In this document: in pieces, positions 743 through 18,000 of the stretch | Numbering within the stretch: the stretch's first letter is position 1 | Layout of the letters: every line of letters begins with the position of its first letter | Virus record (IMG/VR): IMGVR_UViG_3300040806_000036 | Span: 1 to 26,316 of that record | Direction: 5' to 3' (one strand) | DNA: 26,316 bases | DNA from: a virus | The notes under the pieces: model-generated | Told to the model about the DNA's origin: nothing | Seen by the model: only the letters and a program-made list of their open reading frames with translations | Databases searched by the model: none | Program-made: the position numbers and the translations under genes

Positions 743-873
743 TACTTTTTTCCTTTCGGCTTATAGCCTGATGCGTAGATTGCCTTGCCCTGCCGCTCGG
801 CAGCAGCTTTAGTTTTGTAAACCTTACCAGATTTACCCCACTTGTAACCGCCCTTAACCTTGTGAACTGGCAT
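742..873 (-). CDS. Small basic protein, 43 aa
   Basis: A 43-residue protein beginning MPVHKVKGGYKWGKSGKVY and ending KAIYASGYKPKGKK. Tiny proteins of this pattern (Lys/Gly/Tyr-rich, with GYKWGKSGKVY followed by an AIYASGY tail) are familiar from phages of many hosts; their function is unknown. Its start lies 20 bases inside the end of the M15 peptidase gene and its stop overlaps the next ATG by one base. No signal peptide or membrane segment is visible. Confidence 0.75.
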   Translation of the reverse strand: MPVHKVKGGYKWGKSGKVYKTKAAAERQGKAIYASGYKPKGKK

Positions 874-1396
874 ATTTACCATCCCATCGCTTTTTCAAGC
901 CGTTATCAATATGAACGTGCCGCTCGTACAAACCGACCCCACCATCAAAGTCGTGTAGGTACTGAGCAACCTTTGCCGGACTAACGCCCCTTACTACAAA
1001 GTCGATTGCCTGCCCTGTTGTATGCAGGCTTCCATCCACACCACCGACCTCTTGGTTGCGTTTGTCACAGCGGAACCCACTCGTGACCACCACATCGCGT
1101 TGGAAGTTGTCTTGTATTCTGTCGAGCATGGTAACAAGTCTTGGGGTATACATCACTTCCCCACAACCACACCGACAAGTAAAATCCGATACCTTGAAAT
1201 TCTTGCCGACCTTTATGTCAAGCATCTCAAAGTTGTCACCTTTTGTTTGCATATTATGACCCCCGATTGGTATGCAAATAGGAACTGAGTTTAATGAGCA
1301 ATCGTCATCGCTATTCACGGGCGAGCCTACCCAATCCTGTATCGTTGAGCATCCTTGCAGCAATAACATTACTGCTATTGGAATGGCTCGTAACAC
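854..1396 (-). CDS. M15-family peptidoglycan peptidase (endolysin) with lipoprotein signal
   Basis: A 180-residue zinc peptidase of the M15 family, expected to cut peptide bonds in peptidoglycan at lysis. Residues 56-175 form the catalytic domain: H125-x6-D132 in LHTTGQAID, then E158-R-H160-V-H162-I-D in YERHVHID, which is the usual zinc and catalytic set. I chose GTG at 1396 because it overlaps the TAG of the gene before it by one base and follows AGGA by 8 bases. The frame is open to 1450, but that would bury the signal. With this start the protein opens with a short hydrophobic stretch and the lipobox LLQGC (Cys16) followed by Ser17, which favours sorting to the outer membrane. C74, C76 and C78 (in CRCGCG) are also present. 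Confidence 0.85.
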   Translation of the reverse strand: MLRAIPIAVMLLLQGCSTIQDWVGSPVNSDDDCSLNSVPICIPIGGHNMQTKGDNFEMLDIKVGKNFKVSDFTCRCGCGEVMYTPRLVTMLDRIQDNFQRDVVVTSGFRCDKRNQEVGGVDGSLHTTGQAIDFVVRGVSPAKVAQYLHDFDGGVGLYERHVHIDNGLKKRWDGKYASSQG

Positions 1397-1848
1397 TATG
1401 ATTTTCCTAGATAAAATGATCCTGCTGCAAGTATGGATGTCTTGAGCCACTCGAAATGAACAATAGCATTTTCTAAGCGAACAAACTCAGTCGTTGTTCC
1501 GGTAGTGTCGATCAGCCCCAAGAAGTTAAATCCAGTTTCCTTCTCAATAGGAATAACAATATCGAGTCCAGTCAATGATCCTGTCATTGCCCATACACCA
1601 AGACCTATCATCGACAACACAAAGATTCTTCGCGTCATTTTCGCAAACGGATCGTTACCCACACGAGCCGCAGCAGCGTCAGCAGCTTTGGTTGCTCGCA
1701 TTGAGTCAGCATCGGCTTGTTCGGTCTTAGCCTTCATCGCCTCGATCATTAGCTTCTGCTGTTCGCGCTTAGCTTCAGCAGCCTTATCCATCATTTTAAA
1801 AACGTGTCCGAGGACAGCTCCACCGCCCATCGCCGCCAATTCCATCAT
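1396..1848 (-). CDS. Membrane protein with helical N-terminus, holin candidate, 150 aa
   Basis: A 150-residue protein with a charged, probably coiled-coil region at about residues 18-62 (rich in Ala, Lys, Glu), a hydrophobic segment at about 74-98 (starting IFVLSMIGLGVWAM) and a second near the C-terminus (about 134-148). This layout resembles phage holin or holin-like proteins such as the GTA_holin_3TM group, but the match is one of shape, not a clear motif. It starts ATG-ATG with a four-base overlap on the EF-hand gene, and its stop overlaps the GTG of the M15 peptidase. The position directly ahead of the endolysin supports a lysis role. Confidence 0.7.
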   Translation of the reverse strand: MMELAAMGGGAVLGHVFKMMDKAAEAKREQQKLMIEAMKAKTEQADADSMRATKAADAAAARVGNDPFAKMTRRIFVLSMIGLGVWAMTGSLTGLDIVIPIEKETGFNFLGLIDTTGTTTEFVRLENAIVHFEWLKTSILAAGSFYLGKS

Positions 1849-2159
1849 TTCTGATCACCTTTTTTCATAGAAGAAAAGCCAAAGTACGAGGCAACGATTG
1901 CCGCGATACTAACGTAATAAATATTGCTCATCTGAGCTAAGAGGTCACTAGCTCGTACAAGACCCAAAGACTCAGTAGCCACAACAGAAAAAGGAAACAA
2001 GAGCATACCGCTGAGAGAAAACCACGACATGGTTCGCATCGCGTCACGTCTTGCGTCTTCGTCTTCCATTTCTCGTCTGAGCTTTTCAATGTAAATCTCG
2101 TGTTCAGCTTCAGTAACGATGCCGTCACCGTCTAAATCTGCCTTGCCTAAATCACTCAT
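1845..2159 (-). CDS. EF-hand membrane protein, 104 aa
   Basis: A 104-residue protein whose N-terminus holds a single canonical EF-hand loop, D8-L-D10-G-D12-G-I14-V-T16-E-A-E19, expected to bind calcium. A charged helix follows (about 20-42), then two hydrophobic segments at about 45-68 and 80-98. The EF-hand should face the cytoplasm if the N-terminus stays inside. It lies between a coiled-coil membrane protein and the holin candidate, overlapping the latter by four bases. The function is not known; a calcium-sensitive lysis or membrane protein is speculation. Confidence 0.75.
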   Translation of the reverse strand: MSDLGKADLDGDGIVTEAEHEIYIEKLRREMEDEDARRDAMRTMSWFSLSGMLLFPFSVVATESLGLVRASDLLAQMSNIYYVSIAAIVASYFGFSSMKKGDQK

Positions 2160-2160
2160 G

Positions 2161-2595
2161 CTAATTTGCCAATGGATTATCTAGTGCCTTCTGGATGCGC
2201 TCTTCAAGCTCGGCTTTTGTTTCCTCAACCTTGCCTTCAAACTTGTCCATCTTGCCTTCAAAATAAACGACCTTATCGTTCACCCGTTTTTCAATATCAT
2301 AGGTTAACTGCTTGTTATCGCGTAAGTTTCCTTCGATTGATTGTAGCAGCTTTTCCTGATTATCAATCTTATGATCGATCAACTCCATTCTTTGCTCGAA
2401 CGCGCCAATATCGAGGGATGCGATTTCCTCGATCCTTTGGTACATAACGAAACCACCATAAAGACTACCAACAATGGTGCTAACAAGACCGAGAGCAAGC
2501 CCAAGCTGAGTAGGAGTAAAGCGTAAGCCAAGAATGCTGAGGCGTTTGTCAGCCAAGCCTTCAATATCGTCAAGTTTTTCACCTAAATCTGCCAT
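2161..2595 (-). CDS. Membrane-anchored coiled-coil protein, 144 aa
   Basis: A 144-residue protein with a cytoplasm-like N-terminus, one hydrophobic segment at about residues 26-51 (PTQLGLALGLVSTIVGSLYG) and a long charged, heptad-like helix from about 60 to 140. The layout resembles an inner-membrane spanin (Rz-like) or a holin accessory protein, but no diagnostic motif is visible. Its ATG overlaps the stop of the 143-aa exported protein by one base (TGATG). It sits in the lysis block, one base before the EF-hand gene. Confidence 0.7.
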   Translation of the reverse strand: MADLGEKLDDIEGLADKRLSILGLRFTPTQLGLALGLVSTIVGSLYGGFVMYQRIEEIASLDIGAFEQRMELIDHKIDNQEKLLQSIEGNLRDNKQLTYDIEKRVNDKVVYFEGKMDKFEGKVEETKAELEERIQKALDNPLAN

Positions 2596-3026
2596 CAGTT
2601 ATCAAACCCTTTCTGAAGCTTACGCAGATTATTCAGCTCCTGTTGCAGCTTTTCTAGCTCAAGACGCTTACGTTGCAACTCAAGGTTATACAAAGATGTG
2701 CAATCAAGCCTACGCTTTGGAGCATCCAGTGGAATGATGATGCGGGCGTACAAACCCAAATCTTTGGTCTGTGGGTTCATTGGGTCTTCTGACTCGAACG
2801 GGCTAACTGCGTTATTCACGATACCTGTCACGCCTAGCTCTAGGTTAGTCGCCCCACCGATAGCCGACTGACACTCCATATCGCCTGCACGAACGCGATC
2901 TGAGCCATAGCTTTGTCCCATGCTAGGTAACTGCATATTCAGCGAGCTGTTATCAGCAATCGCTTTAGCCGATCCGATAATGATCAGCAGATACCACCCA
3001 ACAATGATTAACGTATTTTTGAGCAT
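2595..3026 (-). CDS. Exported protein with C-terminal coiled coil, 143 aa
   Basis: A 143-residue protein with a typical Sec signal (hydrophobic core TLIIVGWYLLIIIGSAKA) and likely cleavage after AKA near residue 22. The mature part has a beta-rich centre containing LGLYARIIIPLDAPKRRLDC and ends in a Leu/Lys/Glu-rich helix (about 110-140). Two cysteines (about 52 and 109) could form a disulfide. I do not recognise the family. The gene overlaps the end of the 124-aa exported gene by 19 bases, so the two are probably translated together. A spanin-like role is conceivable because of the coiled coil. Confidence 0.7.
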   Translation of the reverse strand: MLKNTLIIVGWYLLIIIGSAKAIADNSSLNMQLPSMGQSYGSDRVRAGDMECQSAIGGATNLELGVTGIVNNAVSPFESEDPMNPQTKDLGLYARIIIPLDAPKRRLDCTSLYNLELQRKRLELEKLQQELNNLRKLQKGFDN

Positions 3027-3382
3027 ATCTTTGAGGATAGCAGCGTGACTGTCCCTTCACCTTTTAGCTTAGACCGTGAACAAATGTATTGTGCGCGAGG
3101 CACATCGTCAGAGTTAATGTAAATGTCAAATTTCAGGCGTTGCAGGTATTTGACGTGGGCTATCTTGTACTGGCTCACAAACGGCACTGGATCGCCTTTC
3201 TTGTCCGTTACGGATATTTCGTAATACTCAACGTCCTGTCGTTTGTTAAGGATCGTCATTTGCGTCTTTACGACACCCTGAACGTGCGACACATACCACT
3301 CAGGATATGTCGGGGTCATCTCATGTGCTACAACAGATGTAGCGATTGCTACAAGAAATGTAGCGACTATTGCGCGATACAT
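3008..3382 (-). CDS. Small exported protein, chaperone-like Ig domain possible, 124 aa
   Basis: A 124-residue protein with a Sec signal (IVATFLVAIATSVVA, cleavage near AHE at about 19-20). The mature part is beta-rich: TQMTILNKRQDVEYYEISVT then GDPVPF, then a basic strand region and YICSRSK. The order of strands and the GxPVPF turn resemble the first Ig-like domain of PapD-type pilus chaperones, but a second domain is absent, so this is a suggestion rather than an assignment. Two cysteines near the C-terminus (in YICSRS and KICSKI) may pair. It overlaps the end of the pilin-like gene by 16 bases. Confidence 0.65.
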   Translation of the reverse strand: MYRAIVATFLVAIATSVVAHEMTPTYPEWYVSHVQGVVKTQMTILNKRQDVEYYEISVTDKKGDPVPFVSQYKIAHVKYLQRLKFDIYINSDDVPRAQYICSRSKLKGEGTVTLLSSKICSKIR

Positions 3383-3864
3383 TCCGCTTCAACCACCGCA
3401 CGGTAAGTACCCGATGGGAAGGCGCGATTGCCGCCGTTAGTTGCCTCAGACTCCACCTTGAACCAAGTCGATCCAGTAGCCGTCAACGCATACTCGCGTG
3501 TCTGGTCATAGGTGATCGAGTCAGTCTGGTAGTCAGCCATTGCCACATCACCAACAGACGACACATCAACAGACCCCGTAAAGGTCACTGTGTCATTCAA
3601 GTTTGGGCTTTGCGAGAAGCTAGTCGGGTAAGTGATTCGAGCGTTGTAAGCATCTGCTAACGACACGTCATAACGCACGATAGGCAGAACGCCGCCATCA
3701 GCAGGAGCAGTTGATAGGGTATAGGCATTTGGGTTTCCGTAGACACCGGCAGTGTCAGTTTGAATGATACAGCGCGATTCAACCGTGCCGGTAATTGGCA
3801 CCTCTATAGCTATGGCACTGCCAGAAAGCAGACACATTGCCGTCATTATTTTGACACTATTCAT
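3367..3864 (-). CDS. Exported beta-rich protein, pilin/spore-coat-U-like, 165 aa
   Basis: A 165-residue protein with a Sec signal (residues 1-20, ending SAIA-IE) and a beta-rich mature part. Only two mature cysteines are present, C32 (VESRC) near the start and C162 (VEAEC) at the end, and a late FPSGTYRAVVEAE strand resembles the last strand of fimbrial or spore-coat-U-like subunits. It has a strong Shine-Dalgarno (AGGAG, six-base spacer). The possible chaperone gene directly follows with overlap. The pilin-like call is by fold pattern only; it could instead be an unrelated periplasmic jelly-roll protein. Confidence 0.65.
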   Translation of the reverse strand: MNSVKIMTAMCLLSGSAIAIEVPITGTVESRCIIQTDTAGVYGNPNAYTLSTAPADGGVLPIVRYDVSLADAYNARITYPTSFSQSPNLNDTVTFTGSVDVSSVGDVAMADYQTDSITYDQTREYALTATGSTWFKVESEATNGGNRAFPSGTYRAVVEAECIAQ

Positions 3865-3866
3865 GG

Positions 3867-4724
3867 TTATCTCCTATATTGTTGATCAACCATCTGTTTG
3901 TGAAGCACCTGCTGTGCCAAGTTTCTAAACGCTCGTCTATTATCCGGTATATTTTTGTCTTGTAAAACAACGGTTTCCTGATATTTTCCGCCCTGTAACA
4001 CGGCTGCATAATATCCGTTGAGGTTAGTAGCAGTGTTCATTGCCTTTAGCAGCGCGTTCTGTGACATACCAAAACCTAGCGTCAAAGCGTTCTCAGAAGC
4101 CGCCAGAGCTGTTTCTAGGCGTTCTTTGTCCTCATCCTCGTCCTTGTATACCTTTTCCTCGTTATCGTCCTCTATCAGGCTTAAATCGGTTGGTTCTAGC
4201 GATTGTTGGACGTAACTGTCACTAAGGGCATCGTAAACATCGTAGACAGGAAGCTCGGGGATTTCTTGTTGCTGCACGACATTAAGGTCGCGGCGGAAAG
4301 TGTACACAACAGTAGGATTCTCAATCGCACCTATTCCCACCTCAGCAATGCTTCCCTCGCCCCAGTTTCCCAACGGACTATATGGCACTGGCACGAATCG
4401 GGTGAGAGTCGTACCACTTTTACCCGACCAATCATCTGTCGACCGGAATATAAATCCATTTCCATCGGCAGCTTCATTCTGGATACTGACGGTATAGGGA
4501 TCGGCTCGATCTTTGACGGCTGTGTACTGGTAGATGACTCCGTTGATGTCAACTCCTTGAACTGTAGGTACAGAAAATAGAGAGCTAGACATCCCCCAAG
4601 AGCTACCCCCAGAAGCAGCGTTACTACTGTATCCAAACTCATAATCAGAATAAGAGGGCTGCGCCAAACACGCCGCCGATAATGCCAAGAGCTTGGTTAC
4701 GTTTTTCTTCAGCCGTAGGTTCAT
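3867..4724 (-). CDS. Exported protein of unknown function, 285 aa
   Basis: A 285-residue protein with a basic N-terminus and Sec signal (LLALSAACLAQPSYS, cleavage near residue 26). It has a beta-rich first half (GVIYQYTAV, NPTVVYTF), an acidic linker (DDNEEKVYKDEDEDKERLE at about 186-205) and a helical C-terminus. The start lies 80 bases inside the gene before it but has an excellent Shine-Dalgarno, GAGGGAG with a six to seven base spacer, which supports the long overlap. I do not recognise the family. It is the largest member of the exported-protein block and likely acts in the periplasm. Confidence 0.7.
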   Translation of the reverse strand: MNLRLKKNVTKLLALSAACLAQPSYSDYEFGYSSNAASGGSSWGMSSSLFSVPTVQGVDINGVIYQYTAVKDRADPYTVSIQNEAADGNGFIFRSTDDWSGKSGTTLTRFVPVPYSPLGNWGEGSIAEVGIGAIENPTVVYTFRRDLNVVQQQEIPELPVYDVYDALSDSYVQQSLEPTDLSLIEDDNEEKVYKDEDEDKERLETALAASENALTLGFGMSQNALLKAMNTATNLNGYYAAVLQGGKYQETVVLQDKNIPDNRRAFRNLAQQVLHKQMVDQQYRR

Positions 4725-5223
4725 CTACTTCTCCCTCTACTGGTTGCTTGCTTTCATGGACTTGCCAAGCTGCTTTTGCTGCATCACCAATAAGACCGTC
4801 ATACGGACAGGGTGTGCCTGCGTTCATCATGGCATCAAAGACCTTTTTGTCTTGGCACATGACACTAACTGCGGCGACTTTCATGCCCATGTCGTACAGC
4901 GTTTTGGCGTTCTTTAGTCGAATACAGTTTTCTTCGGTAAAGGTTGACCCAATCGAGATGCCGAGAATTTGGGTCTGCACCGCGCCAGTTGCACCAATAG
5001 TGCATAAGTCCGAATTATTCCCACTGGAAAACTGAGGCGCGATGGCAGATGGGGGTGGTGATTTGACTGTGGTGGTCTGGCTTCCGTTAGTGGTAACGGT
5101 TGATGTGGATTCCGTAACGATAGGTTCAGCTATTGCCTGCTCAGCGACTGTGATTAAAGCAACGATTGCACCACCTGTTAGCAGCGATACAACAAAGTAT
5201 AAGATTCTGTCGACCCAAGACAT
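4645..5223 (-). CDS. Membrane or exported protein of a marine-phage-type family, 192 aa
   Basis: A 192-residue protein with a hydrophobic N-terminal segment (about 7-32, an uncleaved anchor or a signal), a Ser/Thr-rich stretch, then a compact region with CTIGATGAVQTQI, LKNAKTLYDMGMKVAAVSVM and GTPCPYDGLIGD, and a hydrophobic C-terminus (about 177-192). The TLYDMGMKVAAV and TPCPYDG motifs are ones I recall from unannotated marine phage proteins, usually near lysis or structural genes. Four cysteines in the central region may form disulfides in the periplasm. No function can be assigned. The 285-aa gene begins inside its end. Confidence 0.7.
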   Translation of the reverse strand: MSWVDRILYFVVSLLTGGAIVALITVAEQAIAEPIVTESTSTVTTNGSQTTTVKSPPPSAIAPQFSSGNNSDLCTIGATGAVQTQILGISIGSTFTEENCIRLKNAKTLYDMGMKVAAVSVMCQDKKVFDAMMNAGTPCPYDGLIGDAAKAAWQVHESKQPVEGEVDEPTAEEKRNQALGIIGGVFGAALLF

Positions 5224-10116: not shown

Positions 10117-12074
10117 GGCTGCAACATATCTCCGAATAAGCTTTCGCCGAGTGTACCACCTTGCTCAGATGCTTGTCTTACCAAGCCTTTCTGTGCAGCT
10201 TGTGATCCACCGCTCATAATCGCTGCGATTCTACGCTGTACCGTAGCCAGTGCAGTATCATCATTTAGTGCGCGGCGTAAAATATCTGGGTCTTCGGTCA
10301 TAATGATGCCGACAACCTGCTCACGCTGACGTGGCGACAAGTCTGGTGAGATTGATCTGACCATGCCTTGAGCAATGCGAGCCAAGCTAGGCATATGACC
10401 TACCATAGCACCCTGCACGTCACCGGCAGATACGTTTGTGCCAATACGGCTCATTGCTGACTGCATAGGAGCTGTTGGCGAACCACCGGCTACACTCTGC
10501 TTCACCTGACGAGCAATAGCGGCAGTTTCAAGGTTCTTGATCACGCGATCAGCATCAAATCCGTCAGGATATAGCTCACGGAATATCTGACCTTCTGCGC
10601 TATCTTGATCTGCTAATCGGCGAGCAACTGTGCCTTGACGAGCAAACTTGTTCTTGAGCTGATTCATAAAGCCTGCGCGAAGAGCTTTAATCTCGCTTTC
10701 GTTGCCACGAGCCATGACCTGCTGAATAGTAAATAGCTTTTCTTCAAGATCGCCTGTAAGAATTTTCCTACCTGCATCAAACGCATCACGCGCAGTATTC
10801 AGGTTAGCCCAGTTTTGACGGGTAGCTGCCAAGTCTGGAGCCTCGTCATCAAGTTGTTTACGCAATGAACGCTCAAGGTCGCCCAGTGCCTCTCCAATCG
10901 ATCCTGACTTATCCTTATAAGCCTTACTGGTAGCCTCTGCTAATGCACGGCGGATAATCTCAGCATCTTCAACGGTAGGCTGACGTACAATCTGCAATGC
11001 GCCGTTTTCATTAACTTTGAAGAACGGAACAAGGTTGCCGCGAGATTGATAAATCTTGCCAATCTCTGCTGCTGCGTCAGGCATACGAACCAGAGCCTCA
11101 GACAGGGTGCTTGTCATCTCACGAGATACTGGTTGACCCTGTGCAAAGATTTGGTTGTAAGCGTTGCTTTGCTTTTGCTTAAACTGTTGCTCGCCAAGAC
11201 GAATGGTGCGGTAGACGTTATCGCCTGCTTGCGGAGCTAAACCACGCTGTAGGTCATCAATCGATTGTGATTGTGTCTGACGTGCGCGGCGTTCAAGTGT
11301 TTCTGTGATCTGTGCGCCTGCTTTACCGCCGGCTGCGCGATACGCCTGTAGCGACTTAATCAGCTCAGGGTTTTCGGTCATCAAACGACCATCCATCAGA
11401 TCGTTAATTACTTCGTCTGCGGTCTTGCCAGACTCTTGCACTAAGCGATTTACTTCAGCCTGTACTGCTGAGCCTGCACGATCACCAATAACTGAGCGAC
11501 CTGCATCAATAACTTTGTTTAGCAATGTGCCAGAACCGGCTAATGTTGGAGCTAGTACGCCACCTGTAATGCCGCCAACTGCCGCGCCTGTTGGAATGCG
11601 AGCGATGTCCTCAACCATTCCTTTCTCGCCAGTGCCATAAGCTGTAAGTGCGCCTTCACCTGTTCCGATCAGAGCAGCACGACCTGCTAAACGACCCAGT
11701 GATTGTTGTGCTACTGGTGCACCAAAGCCAGTCATAAGGGCAACTGCTGTAGGAGCTGCTGCACCTAGCATTTCCATAGAGATAGCTTCGTATGGGTGTG
11801 CTTGTTGATAGGCTGCTAGTTTCTGACGAATCTGGTCACGAATCTCTTCATAGCTACCACTTTCAACAGCAGATCGAGCCAACGCTTCAATCTCATCAGC
11901 AAAACCAAAAGTTAAGCCTTGAGCAAATGAGCGACCTTTTTCAGACGTGTCACGGCGTTGAGCGGCACGACCTAAAATGCGATCAATGCCACCTTGAGTA
12001 GGCATATCAGAGGTTGCATTTTGCTCCTCTAGTCTGCGCTGCTCTGCGCGAGCCAGAATGTCCTCTAATGCCAT
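10113..12074 (-). CDS. Probable internal virion (DNA ejection) protein, 653 aa
   Basis: A 653-residue Ala/Gly/Arg-rich protein. The segment SFAQGLTFGFADEIEALARS near residue 50 is a motif seen in internal or injected proteins of many podoviruses. It is followed by a weakly hydrophobic, Gly/Ala-rich region (about 97-190, with AAPTAVALMTGFGAP and GAAVGGITGGVLAP) that could insert in membrane during ejection, and by long helical stretches. Position next to the portal fits. It starts on a TAATG overlap with the 492-aa gene. No lytic-enzyme motif is visible. The exact role is inferred. Confidence 0.75.
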   Translation of the reverse strand: MALEDILARAEQRRLEEQNATSDMPTQGGIDRILGRAAQRRDTSEKGRSFAQGLTFGFADEIEALARSAVESGSYEEIRDQIRQKLAAYQQAHPYEAISMEMLGAAAPTAVALMTGFGAPVAQQSLGRLAGRAALIGTGEGALTAYGTGEKGMVEDIARIPTGAAVGGITGGVLAPTLAGSGTLLNKVIDAGRSVIGDRAGSAVQAEVNRLVQESGKTADEVINDLMDGRLMTENPELIKSLQAYRAAGGKAGAQITETLERRARQTQSQSIDDLQRGLAPQAGDNVYRTIRLGEQQFKQKQSNAYNQIFAQGQPVSREMTSTLSEALVRMPDAAAEIGKIYQSRGNLVPFFKVNENGALQIVRQPTVEDAEIIRRALAEATSKAYKDKSGSIGEALGDLERSLRKQLDDEAPDLAATRQNWANLNTARDAFDAGRKILTGDLEEKLFTIQQVMARGNESEIKALRAGFMNQLKNKFARQGTVARRLADQDSAEGQIFRELYPDGFDADRVIKNLETAAIARQVKQSVAGGSPTAPMQSAMSRIGTNVSAGDVQGAMVGHMPSLARIAQGMVRSISPDLSPRQREQVVGIIMTEDPDILRRALNDDTALATVQRRIAAIMSGGSQAAQKGLVRQASEQGGTLGESLFGDMLQP

Positions 12075-13552
12075 TAGCCTGCTCCTAGCTCACGAGCTAC
12101 TTCTTCGCGCTCTTCGGGTGTCATGTATTGCCATAATGCTTTGACGTTTTCAGGAGCATTCTCAGGTGCGGTAACTTCTTTTGCGCCCAAGTTATTTAGG
12201 TAGCCGCGTAGGTCATCAGAGATAAGTGGCTTAGCCTCAATCTCCGCCATCTTATTAACAGCCTCTTCTTTGGTAAGAAGACCAACTGAATACTGATTAG
12301 CAATGTCACCCATTTCAATATTGCGCTGTGCTTTGTCTTTCAGCATTTGCTGAGCAATGCGGCGAGCCTTGATGTCGGTAGATACTGGACCTGCCTTTTC
12401 GATCAACAAATCAATATCTTTGTCAGACTGTGCGCCAGTACCTTTCTGACGTTGCGCTTGTGCCACACCAACCATTGCAGCCTTATATGCGTCTACGCCT
12501 GCATTTACACCTCTTGGAATAAAGCCACGCAGTACATTAGGGATTGCGTTTAAGTCTGGGTTTTCACCAAGAATCATCAGTGCTTCTACTGATGCTTTAG
12601 CGTCAACCGCTGTTGTGCGACCTTCTGCCATGTCTGACATACGCTTAGCAAACAGTTTAGCGCGTTCAACATCTTCAGCCTTTTCAGCAGCCTCAATATT
12701 TACCATTGAGCCGCCAAACATCTCTTTGTACTTTTTAGCATCGCCGCCTGCTAATTCCCACTTCTTATCAAAGTCGGTCTGTTTCATAGAGGCAACTGCG
12801 TCTTTGTAAGACATACCGGCAAGCATCAATTGACCCATCTTCTTCTGCTTAGGGTCTGTGCTTTGCAACAACATCTGTGCTGTCTTGTTGCGCTGTGATG
12901 TTGTCTGAACTGTTTCTAGCTGCTTACCTAATACCGCTGCTAAGCCTTGATCTGGCTGATAGCGTAATGAGTTGAACGCAAGTGCAAGACCAAGCATATT
13001 TTCTTTATTGCCAAAGAAATTGCCAACGCCTTCACTAAAAGTATCAAACCAAGAATCATCTCTGTCTTGGCTATTGCGTAGCTCGTTAACAGCTTGATCT
13101 GCCTGCGGACCCTTAGCCATGACCTGTTGTGCCATTTCAGGGTTTTGCTGTGCAAAAGCTGCTGCTTTCTGTGGATCAATGTCTTCTGGCAAACCAGTAC
13201 GCACTGGCGAACCGTCGCTTGATCGCACAACCGATCCGTCACTTGCGCGGACTACGTTTTGGTATAAATCGTTAGTAGGAGTCATCTCGCCGTAGCCCAT
13301 GCCACCACGAGATTCACCGAGCATAGCCATAGCATCTTGACCAGTCACCTGACCAATATCGGCAGGGTTTGGCTGTGGGAAATAACCTGCATTAACTGGC
13401 TGTGGACGTGGAGCAACAATCTCAGGCATTCCACCGGCACCCATCTGACCTGAAGTAAGCGAACGAGCATAACGCTCTTCCTCAGTTTCCTGCCTTCCGC
13501 CAGAAATTAATGGCTCCAGAATACGCTCTAGTAAAGATGGACGCGATTGCAT
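12074..13552 (-). CDS. Probable internal virion or structural protein, 492 aa
   Basis: A 492-residue protein with a Gly/Pro/Met-rich, likely disordered N-terminal third (starting MQSRPSLLERILEPLISGG) and a helical remainder (SMVNIEAAEKAEDVERAKLF, then AKASVEALMIL). No catalytic motif, signal or membrane segment is clear. A GGGGTAGGAA stretch just ahead of the ATG gives a good Shine-Dalgarno. Clustering with the 653-aa and S74-bearing proteins just ahead of the portal suggests an ejected or internal virion component. I do not recognise a named family. Confidence 0.7.
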   Translation of the reverse strand: MQSRPSLLERILEPLISGGRQETEEERYARSLTSGQMGAGGMPEIVAPRPQPVNAGYFPQPNPADIGQVTGQDAMAMLGESRGGMGYGEMTPTNDLYQNVVRASDGSVVRSSDGSPVRTGLPEDIDPQKAAAFAQQNPEMAQQVMAKGPQADQAVNELRNSQDRDDSWFDTFSEGVGNFFGNKENMLGLALAFNSLRYQPDQGLAAVLGKQLETVQTTSQRNKTAQMLLQSTDPKQKKMGQLMLAGMSYKDAVASMKQTDFDKKWELAGGDAKKYKEMFGGSMVNIEAAEKAEDVERAKLFAKRMSDMAEGRTTAVDAKASVEALMILGENPDLNAIPNVLRGFIPRGVNAGVDAYKAAMVGVAQAQRQKGTGAQSDKDIDLLIEKAGPVSTDIKARRIAQQMLKDKAQRNIEMGDIANQYSVGLLTKEEAVNKMAEIEAKPLISDDLRGYLNNLGAKEVTAPENAPENVKALWQYMTPEEREEVARELGAG

Positions 13553-13562
13553 TTCCTACCCC

Positions 13563-14075
13563 TTAAATTCGTCCCATAATGCCTTGCGGCGGCTGCGGCA
13601 CATTAGTTGTAATTGCCTGCATAGCTCCAGATGGTGCTTGTGATGGCTGAATACCTGCATACAGATTGACAGGTGCAAATTGACCACCTACGCCACCACC
13701 CTGCGTACTCACTGGGCTTAGTTTGAAGTTGTCTTGTTGCTTACCCATGCCTGCCAAGTCTTTTGCAAGTTTCTTAGCCTCGTCGCTGCCAAAACCTTGC
13801 TTAAACTGATCCATGATGTTGTTTTCAGCAGTAACGCCTGCATTAGCCTGAGCCGCAGGGGTTTGTGGCATTCCTTGTGATAAGTCAGCCATCTGCGTAG
13901 ACGGCATAGAGCCTGCCATATCTACAGAATTAAATGCGCCAAATTGTGGTGATCCAGAGCCAGAGCCTGCACTAAAACTAGCCTGTGGCATTTGCGCTAG
14001 ATTAGCGTTAGACGCTAAGTCAATACCGCCGCCTGCGCCTGCTCCCATTGTTGGCTGTCCGGTTGAAGCTCCCAT
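13563..14075 (-). CDS. Gln/Gly/Met-rich structural protein, 170 aa
   Basis: A 170-residue low-complexity protein, rich in Gly, Gln, Ala, Met and Pro (MGASTGQPTMGAGAGGG at the start, VPQPPQGIMGRI at the end), with one more ordered, Lys-containing helix near residues 85-115. It starts on a TAATG overlap with the S74-bearing gene. The composition resembles its neighbours, so it is probably a virion-internal or head-tail linker component. Function is unknown. Confidence 0.65.
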   Translation of the reverse strand: MGASTGQPTMGAGAGGGIDLASNANLAQMPQASFSAGSGSGSPQFGAFNSVDMAGSMPSTQMADLSQGMPQTPAAQANAGVTAENNIMDQFKQGFGSDEAKKLAKDLAGMGKQQDNFKLSPVSTQGGGVGGQFAPVNLYAGIQPSQAPSGAMQAITTNVPQPPQGIMGRI

Positions 14076-15004
14076 TAGATTGCTCCTTTCAACTCTGGGT
14101 GACTGTAGTCAACCATCATATATCCGTGATCGCCAGTTACAACCGCTTCTGGGAACATTTCTGCTACTTCTTGAGCGATTACACCGTGACCAATCTGATT
14201 ACCGGCTAACTCGCGACCTTCTTTAGTCCAGTCCCAAGTGTAGGTTTTGATGCCATTCTCTAACTTGCCGTATTCTTGGATGTTCACCTTCAAGCGAATA
14301 TCTGACATACCGTAAATAGTTGCGCCTGCGGTGAGGTAATCCATGATGCCCAAGTTGCGCTGCGAAGAGCCACTTGAAGTCTGACCGTGAGGTGCAGAAC
14401 CGATTGCTTGGGTCATGTATGACAAGCCTGCGGCAGGGAAACCTTGATAAGTAGAATACTGCTGCTTTCCTGCATCGATAAGAGCTTGGTTGAGCAACTG
14501 CTGCTCGCGACCTTGCTGTGCAATATCTTGCTGAAGTGTGCGACCCATGCCAAATGATTGATAACCTAAATTACCTAACTGTGATGCGCCTTGCAGACCA
14601 AGATTAGCCTGAGCTAAGCGGTTTTGAATGTCAGCCTGTGCTTGAGATTGTGCGTTTTGGTAGCCTGACTGTAGCAACTGTCCAGTCTGCTGATTCAAAC
14701 CACGCATGATATCGCCCATCATCTGACCCTGAGCTACGCCATGACGCGAACCGCCAAATGCACCTGCTTGTGTAGCTTGTGCGCCTAACTGGTTTGCACC
14801 CATTTGCATACCGCGAGCTGCTTCTTGCTGTAACCCGCCGATGACGTTCTGTGTGTATGGATTCATGTACTGATTCAGGTTTGATCCCGCCACAGTACCG
14901 ATTGGTGTCATCGCTGCTCTTGCAGTGCCGCCCAATGCGCCTTGTTGCGCCATTGATGCTTGCTGCATTGGATTTATAGGTACACCGCCTGCTGCTGCGC
15001 CCAT
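14075..15004 (-). CDS. Internal virion-like protein with C-terminal peptidase S74 chaperone domain
   Basis: A 309-residue protein in two parts. Residues 1-230 are Gln/Ala/Gly-rich with YMNPYTQNVIGGLQQEA and QLGAQATQAGAFGGSRHGVA, a pattern common in phage ejection or minor structural proteins. Residues 234-309 are an S74 intramolecular chaperone domain: SDIRLKVNI, then IGHGVIAQEVAEMFPEAV and VDYSHPEL. In endosialidases and tail spikes this domain folds a trimer and then cuts itself off at the Ser of the SDxRLK motif. If active here, it would release a mature protein of about 233 residues. The Shine-Dalgarno AGGAG is clear. Confidence 0.8.
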   Translation of the reverse strand: MGAAAGGVPINPMQQASMAQQGALGGTARAAMTPIGTVAGSNLNQYMNPYTQNVIGGLQQEAARGMQMGANQLGAQATQAGAFGGSRHGVAQGQMMGDIMRGLNQQTGQLLQSGYQNAQSQAQADIQNRLAQANLGLQGASQLGNLGYQSFGMGRTLQQDIAQQGREQQLLNQALIDAGKQQYSTYQGFPAAGLSYMTQAIGSAPHGQTSSGSSQRNLGIMDYLTAGATIYGMSDIRLKVNIQEYGKLENGIKTYTWDWTKEGRELAGNQIGHGVIAQEVAEMFPEAVVTGDHGYMMVDYSHPELKGAI

Positions 15005-15014
15005 GGTTTATCTC

Positions 15015-15401
15015 CTAGCTATACAAGCTGCGGCGAATTCCCGCAGATCGTGGATCAAGGCGTTCAGCTTCAGCTTTTGCCTGTTCAAACATTGGATATG
15101 AGCTGTAACCAGAAACTCCGCCAACAGTGGTTGCGGTTGGCATACCAGAAGTCGGTGTTACATTTGCGTAGCCAGACGGCGTCATGCCAAATGCAGACGC
15201 TGAGTCTAAAGCCATCTGATTAGCCATTTCTTGTTGTGGAGTGCGAGCCGCCACATCAATGCCTGTATATGGCTGATATTCCATTTTCTGGATAGTTTCA
15301 GCGCGTCCGATATTCCGAATGGTTGGCTCTTTTAACCAATCAGGGATTTCCGTAACTTGTTGTTGGCTCTGTCCGCCGCCTTTGCCGCCACCGCCGCCCA
15401 T
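15015..15401 (-). CDS. Gly-rich structural protein, 128 aa
   Basis: A 128-residue protein with a Gly/Lys/Gln-rich N-terminus (MGGGGGKGGGQSQQQ), then EIPDWLKEPTIRNIGRAE and QPYTGIDVAARTPQQEMA. The pattern resembles small marine phage structural proteins that precede the MNPY-type protein next to it, as far as I recall. The Shine-Dalgarno AAGGAG lies seven bases before the ATG. No enzyme motif is visible. Probably an internal virion component. Confidence 0.7.
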   Translation of the reverse strand: MGGGGGKGGGQSQQQVTEIPDWLKEPTIRNIGRAETIQKMEYQPYTGIDVAARTPQQEMANQMALDSASAFGMTPSGYANVTPTSGMPTATTVGGVSGYSSYPMFEQAKAEAERLDPRSAGIRRSLYS

Positions 15402-15402
15402 A

Positions 15403-15810
15403 TTAAAACTCCTTTACCATGACAACGTGAGCTTCTTTCCACCCACGATCTCTGTGTACTCTTGCCCATCCCTTGCGCCCTGCAAGGCTTAATGCGCTAC
15501 AGCCATTTATTTTAGCGAAGGTGATTGCAGATTCTTCAAAATCCAGAATTTGCTCCATGTCACCCCCCGCTAAAAAAACGTGCAAAATCTTTTGCTTAGG
15601 ATACACCGTAATCTCAGTCACTGCACATCCTCTTTCGCCCGCCCATAATTGCATATGACCAGACATCACTCCGCGAACAATATCAAAAAAATCATGTGTG
15701 CCGCCAGAGTATTGCAAAGCGTTTTCTATCCAAACTCTACAGCGATCTAGCTGCTCAAATACATCTTCCTCAACAATATCTATATCAGATGCTTCTAATG
15801 CTGCGTTCAT
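15403..15810 (-). CDS. GNAT acetyltransferase-like protein, 135 aa
   Basis: A 135-residue protein. The frame is open to 15882, but the ATG at 15810 follows GAGG at seven bases and lies 11 bases beyond the stop of the C1q-like gene, so it is the likely start (MNAALEASDIDIVEED). The C-terminal half (ITVYPKQKILHVFLAGGD, then GCSALSLAGRKGWARVHRDR) has the strand-helix pattern and GRKGW-GWKE ending of phage GNAT-like proteins found among structural genes. A clear acetyl-CoA-binding loop (Q/RxxGxG/A) is not visible, so the enzyme activity is uncertain. Confidence 0.75.
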   Translation of the reverse strand: MNAALEASDIDIVEEDVFEQLDRCRVWIENALQYSGGTHDFFDIVRGVMSGHMQLWAGERGCAVTEITVYPKQKILHVFLAGGDMEQILDFEESAITFAKINGCSALSLAGRKGWARVHRDRGWKEAHVVMVKEF

Positions 15811-15820
15811 GCTTTGACCT

Positions 15821-16495
15821 CTATACGCTCTTAACCATGAGTGTAATTGATGGGACGGCAGGGCAAAATGACTCTGCCGCATATGTTTTTAACGCCGTAT
15901 CTGTACTGTCTACAGCCCAAAATGCCTCAAGGTAATCACCTGCATTCACCTCAAATATAGCGGCACGGGCGATGGTTTTAGCTTCGTTGTTATCGTGCAA
16001 TGTGATACGCATGGTAGACCCAGAAATGTCCGTGCCGTTGATCCTTGGAAAGAACCAGAAGGTTTTAGCGTTAGCAGATTGTGAATTTATCTGTGCCGTG
16101 AAGTGGATGTAATACTTGCCGCCGTTAGTGAAGTTGATGCGGCTAGTCACCGTGTCATCAATAGCAACGCCGTTTGAATACACTTCAGTACCCCAAGTCA
16201 ACGGATATGCGGTTTCAATGGCTGCTGCTGTGTGGTCATTGTAATCAACAAAAGCTCCGTAACCGTAACCCTGATCAGGATCATTTGCGCCATAACCTAA
16301 CGGAACCCACTCACCATCAATAGACACGACAGGGTGATCAATAGCAGCATCCCACAGCAAAACACCGTCCTGAATGGCGCGAGAATCGTCAGTTTTGAAC
16401 GACAGCTTGTCTTTTACCCGCATCAGGTACGAATTTAAACGCTCGCCCCATGTGGCTAGTGTGCCAACTGGTGGTGGTGGAATCTCAGCACTCAA
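15821..16495 (-). CDS. Tail protein with C1q/TNF-like C-terminal domain, 224 aa, TTG start
   Basis: A 224-residue protein with an N-terminal IPPPPVGTLATWGERLNSYL segment that recurs in marine phage tail proteins and a C-terminal jelly-roll resembling C1q/TNF domains (about 115-224: GGKYYIHFTAQINS, FWFFPRINGTDISGS, GDYLEAFWAV). Such domains trimerise and sit at the tips of fibres or spikes. The TTG start overlaps the stop of the nozzle-like gene by four bases (TTGA); its Shine-Dalgarno is weak, so coupling to that gene is likely. A virion surface or tail role fits. Confidence 0.78.
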   Translation of the reverse strand: MSAEIPPPPVGTLATWGERLNSYLMRVKDKLSFKTDDSRAIQDGVLLWDAAIDHPVVSIDGEWVPLGYGANDPDQGYGYGAFVDYNDHTAAAIETAYPLTWGTEVYSNGVAIDDTVTSRINFTNGGKYYIHFTAQINSQSANAKTFWFFPRINGTDISGSTMRITLHDNNEAKTIARAAIFEVNAGDYLEAFWAVDSTDTALKTYAAESFCPAVPSITLMVKSV

Positions 16496-18000
16496 CGCTT
16501 ACCGCCTGATTCTGCATTGATACGCATTGTGCCGACTCGGAAGTCTTCATTACCTGTAGCCTCTACACGAAGCCTCACCTGACGCCCTGTGAAGCGTACA
16601 GAGGTTGGCATATTGGTTAGGTCATAGTAGGTGCTAGATGACGGATAAGTGCGCTCTGTGTCGTTAGGATGGAATCTGGTCTTAAATTGAACCTGAACCT
16701 CGCCTGCTGTACCTTCATCGCCGATTAGCTGACTGACCTTCATCACGGTGTCGCCATTACCTAGCGAGATGGCAGATGATTCTGCGTAAGGTGTCAGAGT
16801 GCCGTGAGCAATATTGTGCAATTCATGCTCATATAATACGCCTGAAGCATCTACCCAGATTGGCTCGTCAAATACGCCCTGATCTGCGCCACAGGTACGG
16901 TCTAGGCGACCAATGTGCCAGTGCTGCTCAAGATAGTCGTAAACAACGTAAGAATCACACTCTAGTGAGCCTTCTGATGGGTAGAACCACCAAATCTCAC
17001 CGTATTCTGAGTTGATTACAGCGTTTACCTTACTAATCTGGTTGACGTTAAGGTCATCAAAGACGTAATCCTGTACGTCACAAGCCATTTGGCGAGCAAT
17101 AGAGCCATCAAACACATAGAACGACTCACGACCCATCCAGAATGCGCCATGCTCAACCGCTGCAAGTGCCTGTCGAGATGCGATACCACAAGCTGTACCA
17201 ACACGTTCAAAGCCATAAACAAATGGCGCACCTTGATAAGTAGCAATGTGGGCATCGGTAGTGGTCACAATCAATGTACGACCACGCATACGCGCACCAC
17301 ACATAATCTCGCCACTGGTCTGCAATTCAATGTCACCGGCTTCGTTAGTCGCCAAAGGTGTCCAAGTAGTATTGTCTTCACGGTCACACCAAGCAATCTT
17401 TCGTGGCTCACCACCTGCCTGTAACGCAAAAATAAATCGTTCTTCAGTAACGATCAGACCTTTGTTGTCCACTGGCGCGTTAGAAATAGCTGCCGCAGGA
17501 TTAGATGTGTTCAATTGCCATTCATAGAGTTTGCCGTCACCAGTACAACAACCAACAAGGTACTCGCCCCAGTTGTCTAGCGTCCATGTGTCAGCTTCTT
17601 GAAACGCACCTGTAGATGGCTGCTTTGTGCCGTACTTAGAGCCACCGTAAGAGTAAAAGCCACCGCCGTAAGCCGTGTTGATTGCTGCGTGTTCTGCGCC
17701 TGCGGTAAATCCAGTAGGCGTAATGTCTGTGGCTGTACCTGACGCATTGATATACAAAAGCTCTGACGCTGTAGCCAAAGCAGTGTTAGAACCGTAGGTG
17801 TTATCAACCCATGTGTGGATTGCGCGTGGAGCCATTGTCACTGACACTGATTGGTCAGATCGCTCAGCCCAACCACCAACAGGACGCATTGAGCCTTGAT
17901 GCCAACGGATGAGGTTGGAATCACGCCAACGACCACTGTTATCAAAGTCAGTGCCGTTTCGATAAATTCCGGCAGGTAATTTTAGTGGTATAAGTGCCAT
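16492..18000 (-). CDS. Tail nozzle or DNA-stabilisation-like protein, 502 aa
   Basis: A 502-residue protein beginning MALIPLKLPAGIYRNGTDFD, then GRWRDSNLIRWHQGSMRPVG, a start shared by tail hub, nozzle and P22 gp10-like stabilisation proteins of marine podoviruses. The rest is rich in Trp, Gly and aromatic residues in propeller-like repeats (WCDREDNTTWTPLATNEAGD, ESFYVFDGSIARQM, IWWFYPSEGS). It probably closes the portal channel and forms the short tail. The Shine-Dalgarno AGGA lies eight bases before the ATG. I am confident it is a tail protein, less so of the exact homologue. Confidence 0.83.
   Translation of the reverse strand: MALIPLKLPAGIYRNGTDFDNSGRWRDSNLIRWHQGSMRPVGGWAERSDQSVSVTMAPRAIHTWVDNTYGSNTALATASELLYINASGTATDITPTGFTAGAEHAAINTAYGGGFYSYGGSKYGTKQPSTGAFQEADTWTLDNWGEYLVGCCTGDGKLYEWQLNTSNPAAAISNAPVDNKGLIVTEERFIFALQAGGEPRKIAWCDREDNTTWTPLATNEAGDIELQTSGEIMCGARMRGRTLIVTTTDAHIATYQGAPFVYGFERVGTACGIASRQALAAVEHGAFWMGRESFYVFDGSIARQMACDVQDYVFDDLNVNQISKVNAVINSEYGEIWWFYPSEGSLECDSYVVYDYLEQHWHIGRLDRTCGADQGVFDEPIWVDASGVLYEHELHNIAHGTLTPYAESSAISLGNGDTVMKVSQLIGDEGTAGEVQVQFKTRFHPNDTERTYPSSSTYYDLTNMPTSVRFTGRQVRLRVEATGNEDFRVGTMRINAESGGKR

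Follow-up and report, generated by a model that had tools for sequence, protein, structure and literature searches.

Endolysins are known to reach the cell wall by holin release, by signal-arrest-release (SAR) anchors or by cleavable signal peptides. We describe here a gene, at positions 854-1396 on the minus strand of the virus record IMGVR_UViG_3300040806_000036 (26,316 nucleotides, analysed as a whole and called the window), in which the coding sequence of a predicted short phage lipoprotein is joined in frame to that of an M15_3 peptidase. The peptidase is of the same family as the M15_3 endolysins of SP6-like and K1-type podoviruses and of Vibrio phages (Proteus phage Pm5460, Klebsiella VLCpiA2b), with which it shares the H-x6-D and H-x-D motifs and a lysis context; unlike it, however, those isolate endolysins examined start at the equivalent of about residue 60 and have no export signal. 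SAR and signal-peptide endolysins (phi21 R and Mu gp22; the Fletchervirus signal-peptide endolysin, PMC7692668) use Sec for export ahead of lysis, as is predicted for the 854-1396 product; in contrast to them, it has a lipoprotein-type signal with a conserved lipobox Cys rather than a releasable transmembrane (TM) segment or a signal peptidase I signal, and a soluble pool may arise in addition from an internal start. Two-component spanins (Rz/Rz1; PMC6139136) likewise place a small phage lipoprotein in the lysis region; whereas the 854-1396 lipoprotein bears a peptidoglycan enzyme at its C-terminus, and a keyword search of the spanin survey for fused or endolysin-domain forms turned up no spanin-endolysin fusion. 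Two-polypeptide endolysins, a kind described for phages of Gram-positive hosts and judged unlikely among those of Gram-negative hosts (PMC9430671), also yield two in-frame products with a common stop from one gene; in 854-1396, by contrast, the short form would by itself be a complete enzyme, and what the long form adds is a lipoprotein anchor. No lipoprotein endolysin came up in literature searches under that name or related phrases, nor in keyword searches of the spanin survey, a viral lytic-protein survey, a Mu lysis paper and a Campylobacter phage paper.

A predicted lipoprotein leader fused to an M15_3 peptidase

The features of the gene and its upstream junction are the following.

854-1396, minus strand: lipoprotein-M15_3 endolysin gene (predicted), 180 amino acids, GTG start overlapping the upstream stop
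1352-1396, minus strand: signal sequence, residues 1-15 (MLRAIPIAVMLLLQG), assigned from the sequence and relatives
1349-1351, minus strand: predicted lipidated Cys16, followed by Ser17 (outer-membrane type +2 residue)
1223-1348, minus strand: linker, residues 17-58, predicted mostly disordered, with a Cys33-x7-Cys41-Ile motif
881-1222, minus strand: M15_3 peptidase domain, residues 59-172, high-confidence fold; H125, D132, H162 and D164 invariant
1250-1252, minus strand: in-frame internal ATG (Met49), probable second start for a soluble endolysin of 132 amino acids
1259-1264, minus strand: internal Shine-Dalgarno sequence GGGGGT, encoding Gly45-Gly46 (GGAGGT in L001)
1394-1398, minus strand: TAGTG stop/start overlap with the holin-like gene (TAATG in L001), for translational coupling of the long form
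1396-1848, minus strand: holin-like membrane protein, 150 amino acids, weak GTA_holin_3TM match; in relatives it is likewise found immediately before the lipoprotein

Translation from GTG 1396 on the minus strand gives MLRAIPIAVMLLLQGCSTIQDWVG..., 180 codons down to position 854, with the lipobox LLQGC followed by Ser. As the frame is open further upstream, as far as GTG 1450 (198 amino acids), a choice of start was needed, and 1396 was favored because it is supported by L001, a relative in IMG/VR, and by other relatives. The L001 protein is 77% identical over residues 1-177, starts with an ATG at the same junction, where the holin stop is overlapped as TAATG, and retains the lipobox as MMLLQGCSTIQDWVG. 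The original prediction, that a start at GTG 1396 puts a signal and LLQGC-Ser ahead of an M15 domain, was confirmed by the translation, by Pfam, by the TAGTG junction and by L001. It had also named conservation of the lipobox Cys beforehand as one of the observations on which it should be judged, and the lipobox and its Cys are retained in L001 and in relatives with other downstream domains.

Rules for signal peptidase II (SPII) substrates call for a positive n-region, a hydrophobic stretch, a lipobox Cys at 15-35 and no charge before the Cys; the 854-1396 product has a positive n-region, a hydrophobic stretch and an uncharged segment before its Cys. When a crude filter of this kind was applied to the six frames of the window, 5 of 721 NTG starts with at least 40 open codons passed, representing three distinct open reading frames; GTG 1396 is among these few and sits exactly on the holin stop. 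The product does not resemble a SAR endolysin, which has an N-terminal releasable TM segment without a lipobox, as its short hydrophobic region ends at the conserved lipobox Cys.

The peptidase assignment rested on several searches. Pfam Peptidase_M15_3 matched residues 66-164 (E 2.7e-20; 72.9 bits against a curated cut-off of 23.2), the PHROG endolysin match was 1.1e-27, and the sole Foldseek match at E ≤ 0.001 was 1LBU, a Zn DD-peptidase, which was likewise the only structure found by profile search. In the AlphaFold2 model, domain blocks between residues 61 and 170 exceed 90 in pLDDT; residues 6-36 and 45-54 are modelled as disordered. Across M15_3 homologues H125-x6-D132, H162 and D164 are invariant; of the full H-x6-D and E-x-H-x-H set proposed originally, H125, D132 and H162 therefore stand, whereas E158 and H160 lie outside the invariant columns. 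By profile and by Zn-site pattern (H-x6-D ... H) the domain is classed as an M15_3 endolysin.

The leader on other enzymes and on free lipoproteins

A search with the upstream holin-like protein returned 62 loci. Behind the holin-like gene, eight viral contigs fuse the same leader and Cys-x7-Cys linker to a GH24 lysozyme, with PF00959 detected in four of the five such fusions scanned.

L092, L093, L095, L096, L097, L103, L126, L151: GH24-fusion contigs, built as LLSGCSS...C-x7-CIEIT followed by GH24

The same leader and linker also form a free lipoprotein of 49-53 amino acids in L091, L100 and L104 (SLNSVPICIPIGGH in L104), and a diverged family of free lipoproteins (LTMTKDE...C-x6-CI) occurs in about 23 further contigs; overall, free lipoproteins with the same or the diverged leader are 42-78 amino acids long. 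The Cys33-x7-Cys41-Ile motif of the linker is conserved and is common to the free lipoproteins and the GH24 fusions. The leader DNA can be aligned between M15, GH24 and free forms, and an SPII-type leader was found in 0 of 80 other viral M15_3 homologues. As the leader is shared by M15, GH24 and free forms and is missing from those 80 homologues, we concluded that the lipoprotein reading is real and that the leader is a module. Thus the lipoprotein reading of 854-1396 is well supported, with lipidation and an outer-membrane location predicted from it; judged by these alignments, the leader is a reusable lysis module that travels independently of the enzyme and has captured two unrelated endolysin folds. 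Between the window and L001, synonymous codons were conserved at 30 of 37 positions in codons 1-48 versus 38 of 88 in the peptidase (Fisher p 1.4e-4), and beneath the conserved leader no alternative frame was open in both phages. Neither the M15_3 nor the GH24 family was found in the records with a free lipoprotein, which are fragments; in L100, also a fragment, no muralytic domain was seen other than an SLT domain within a large protein.

In L100 (5450-5611) and L104 (3736-3891), the final codons of the free lipoprotein hold a Shine-Dalgarno sequence and run into the start of the structural gene that follows; such an overlap is a likely route for in-frame fusions. The lysozyme of Alteromonas phage P24 was considered as a cultured lipoprotein lysozyme, the match spanning Cys16, and was rejected as an ordinary soluble lysozyme.

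An internal start for a soluble enzyme

ATG 1252 is located exactly at the fusion junction. Its Shine-Dalgarno duplex, at −9.3 kcal/mol, was the strongest of the starts tested in the window and within the lowest 0.27% of all NTGs, and its L001 equivalent, with GGAGGT, reached −10.2 kcal/mol; by these values it counts as an internal translation start site, both products being predictions. The start of the long form is weak (−4.2 kcal/mol at GTG 1396 and −1.7 in L001), and initiation there is probably coupled to translation of the holin. GGA and GGG together are minority Gly codons in the window's phage (127 of 776). Because the Shine-Dalgarno sequence at ATG 1252 is very strong and conserved in L001, a conventional soluble endolysin of 132 amino acids is probably produced from the gene besides the lipoprotein. 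The original prediction had set export by Sec and Lol in place of holin release. This either/or was not supported, as a holin-like gene lies directly upstream and the internal ATG would yield a soluble M15 enzyme; export through lipoprotein sorting is likely to supplement holin release, not to replace it.

The soluble form might even be the only working enzyme, released by the holin; the reading frame upstream would then be a separate small lipoprotein whose stop was lost, and the fusion would be incidental. Such a reading draws on the far better Shine-Dalgarno sequence of the internal start in both phages, on the canonical M15_3 endolysins, whose starts correspond to the region near residue 60, and on L100 and L104, in which the same GGGGGT precedes and serves the gene that follows the free lipoprotein. 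However, as no stop intervenes, each ribosome initiating at 1396 must produce the fusion, and the fusion has been retained in both the window and L001. Moreover, the GH24 fusions have no internal start bearing a good Shine-Dalgarno sequence; the lipoprotein-enzyme is the only evident product there, and the GH24 branch should therefore rely on the lipoprotein form. For these reasons we consider it unlikely that the soluble form works alone.

The lysis cassette and spanin candidates

The cassette has the order TM/coiled-coil gene, two-TM gene, holin-like gene (1396-1848), and lipoprotein with or without enzyme. Further features bearing on spanin function are these.

1845-2159, minus strand: two-TM protein, 104 amino acids, in the lysis-like cassette
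2161-2595, minus strand: protein with N-terminal TM and long coiled-coil-like region, 144 amino acids, i-spanin-like shape (putative)
4331-4642, minus strand: embedded TM protein, in the +1 frame of the 285-amino-acid gene 3867-4724
4196-4330, minus strand: embedded lipoprotein of 44 amino acids, LMSC|S, in the +1 frame of 3867-4724, after the TM protein

The TM/coiled-coil gene, two genes upstream, was found in 15 of 24 related records searched, many of which are short fragments. Its product could be an i-spanin, making the cassette lipoprotein an o-spanin, and 854-1396 might then be bifunctional, its lipoprotein part pairing with the TM/coiled-coil protein while the peptidase removes the wall. 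A small lipoprotein with extra cysteines inside a holin cassette, together with a conserved partner having an N-terminal TM and a coiled coil, would fit such a pairing; yet the TM/coiled-coil gene is also present in L138, whose holin homologue has no lipoprotein immediately behind it, and a further candidate pair is embedded in 3867-4724. Both embedded frames are open in L152, L155, L163 and L169 (lipoboxes LAGC, LTGC, LTGC and LASC), some of which also have a fused or free cassette lipoprotein. When codons were shuffled synonymously, the alternative frame came out as open as observed in 8 of 2000 trials for the window; for the relatives the share was 1.6 to 9%. We regard 4331-4642 and 4196-4330 as a candidate Rz/Rz1-type spanin pair embedded inside an unrelated secreted-protein gene, and with such a pair an o-spanin role of the cassette lipoprotein becomes less necessary. 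The combined endolysin and o-spanin role suggested originally is thus possible in principle, is weakened by the embedded pair in the window and relatives, and seems to us improbable.

A role outside lysis for the lipoprotein form, for example in superinfection exclusion or in remodelling of the wall during infection, with a leader derived from a Cor/Llp-kind exclusion lipoprotein, is very improbable, since the very small size and Cys pair of the free versions and a marginal Cor PHROG match in L124 (E 0.05) are set against the weakness of that match and its confinement to the signal region, the position of the lipoprotein gene with a holin-like gene, and the fusion of the leader to two endolysin families, which points to lysis.

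The holin homologue was also seen with no lipoprotein directly behind it, beside terminase-like, nuclease-like (MYEYKCELIKVVDGDT) or other structural genes.

L112, L113, L116, L121, L122, L133, L134; L127, L130-L132, L139-L141, L147, L150; L143-L146: loci of the holin homologue with no lipoprotein immediately following

Genomic block and host

On the minus strand, positions 1396-5223 of the window form a multi-gene block that recurs in L163, L162, L167 and L166, whose other genes look mutually unlike, which suggests that the block moves as a unit. It comprises proteins of 192, 285, 165, 124 and 143 amino acids, several with N-terminal signal- or TM-like segments, and the lysis-like cassette. 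L161, a phage that carries a free lipoprotein, encodes at 10349-17074 a protein of 2241 amino acids with LPD38 and a weak virion RNA polymerase PHROG match. Homologues of the holin-like protein were sought in genome contigs and phage isolates as a guide to the host; the contigs gave no host, and the isolates held no relative. The 192-amino-acid neighbour matched only Gram-negative metagenome bins (Rhodobacteraceae, Alteromonadales and Bacteroidetes), and the TM/coiled-coil gene had one distant homologue, in Pelagibacter phage HTVC115P; these matches point to diderm hosts, without settling the host.

Proposed mechanism

The sequence itself shows that lipoprotein and peptidase are fused, that the fusion is conserved, that the gene has two starts and that the leader has been reused on a different enzyme fold. 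We propose, with moderate confidence, that 854-1396 serves lysis and that, by joining a short phage lipoprotein in frame to an M15_3 peptidase, it supplies both a tethered and a soluble pool of enzyme. Initiation at GTG 1396, through coupling to the holin-like gene, would give the long form, which would be exported by Sec, lipidated at Cys16 by Lgt and cleaved by signal peptidase II. A Ser at +2 of the lipobox Cys is of the outer-membrane sorting type, and should route the long form to the outer membrane if the host is diderm; with a linker of 42 residues, some 15 nm long when extended, the peptidase would be able to reach peptidoglycan from the outer-membrane side. The ATG 1252 product would be a soluble endolysin kept in the cytoplasm until the holin acts, so that one gene would supply a tethered periplasmic pool and a soluble one. 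The lipobox motif and general knowledge of lipoprotein sorting are the grounds for Sec export, lipidation and outer-membrane sorting; we infer these steps, the localization, the use of both starts and the timing.

Several points weigh against this proposal. The Gln at −2 of the lipobox is atypical relative to the usual [LVI][ASTVI][GAS]C, yet it is retained in L001, and the signal, with its Cys at residue 16, is at the short limit. If ATG 1252 dominates, the long form could be minor. Other conserved islands lie nearby, and the synonymous conservation of the leader may partly reflect recombination. The outer membrane of the host is an assumption. If an active peptidase were exported all the time, the cell would be at risk of lysing too soon, and no element that controls this was identified.

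We suggest, more tentatively, that lipoprotein endolysins are a new class, in which an exchangeable cassette anchor has captured at least two unrelated wall enzymes (M15 and GH24), the M15 branch being dual-start and both tethered and soluble. If annotation placed the start of such genes at the internal ATG, the class would go unnoticed, and the M15 and GH24 fusions on one leader amount to a natural swap experiment. Lipid-anchored delivery, if true, would be a further route for endolysins and would bring an enzyme that acts on the wall to the side of the outer membrane, as spanins do; it raises the testable question of what prevents an enzyme that is active on arrival in the periplasm from causing premature lysis.
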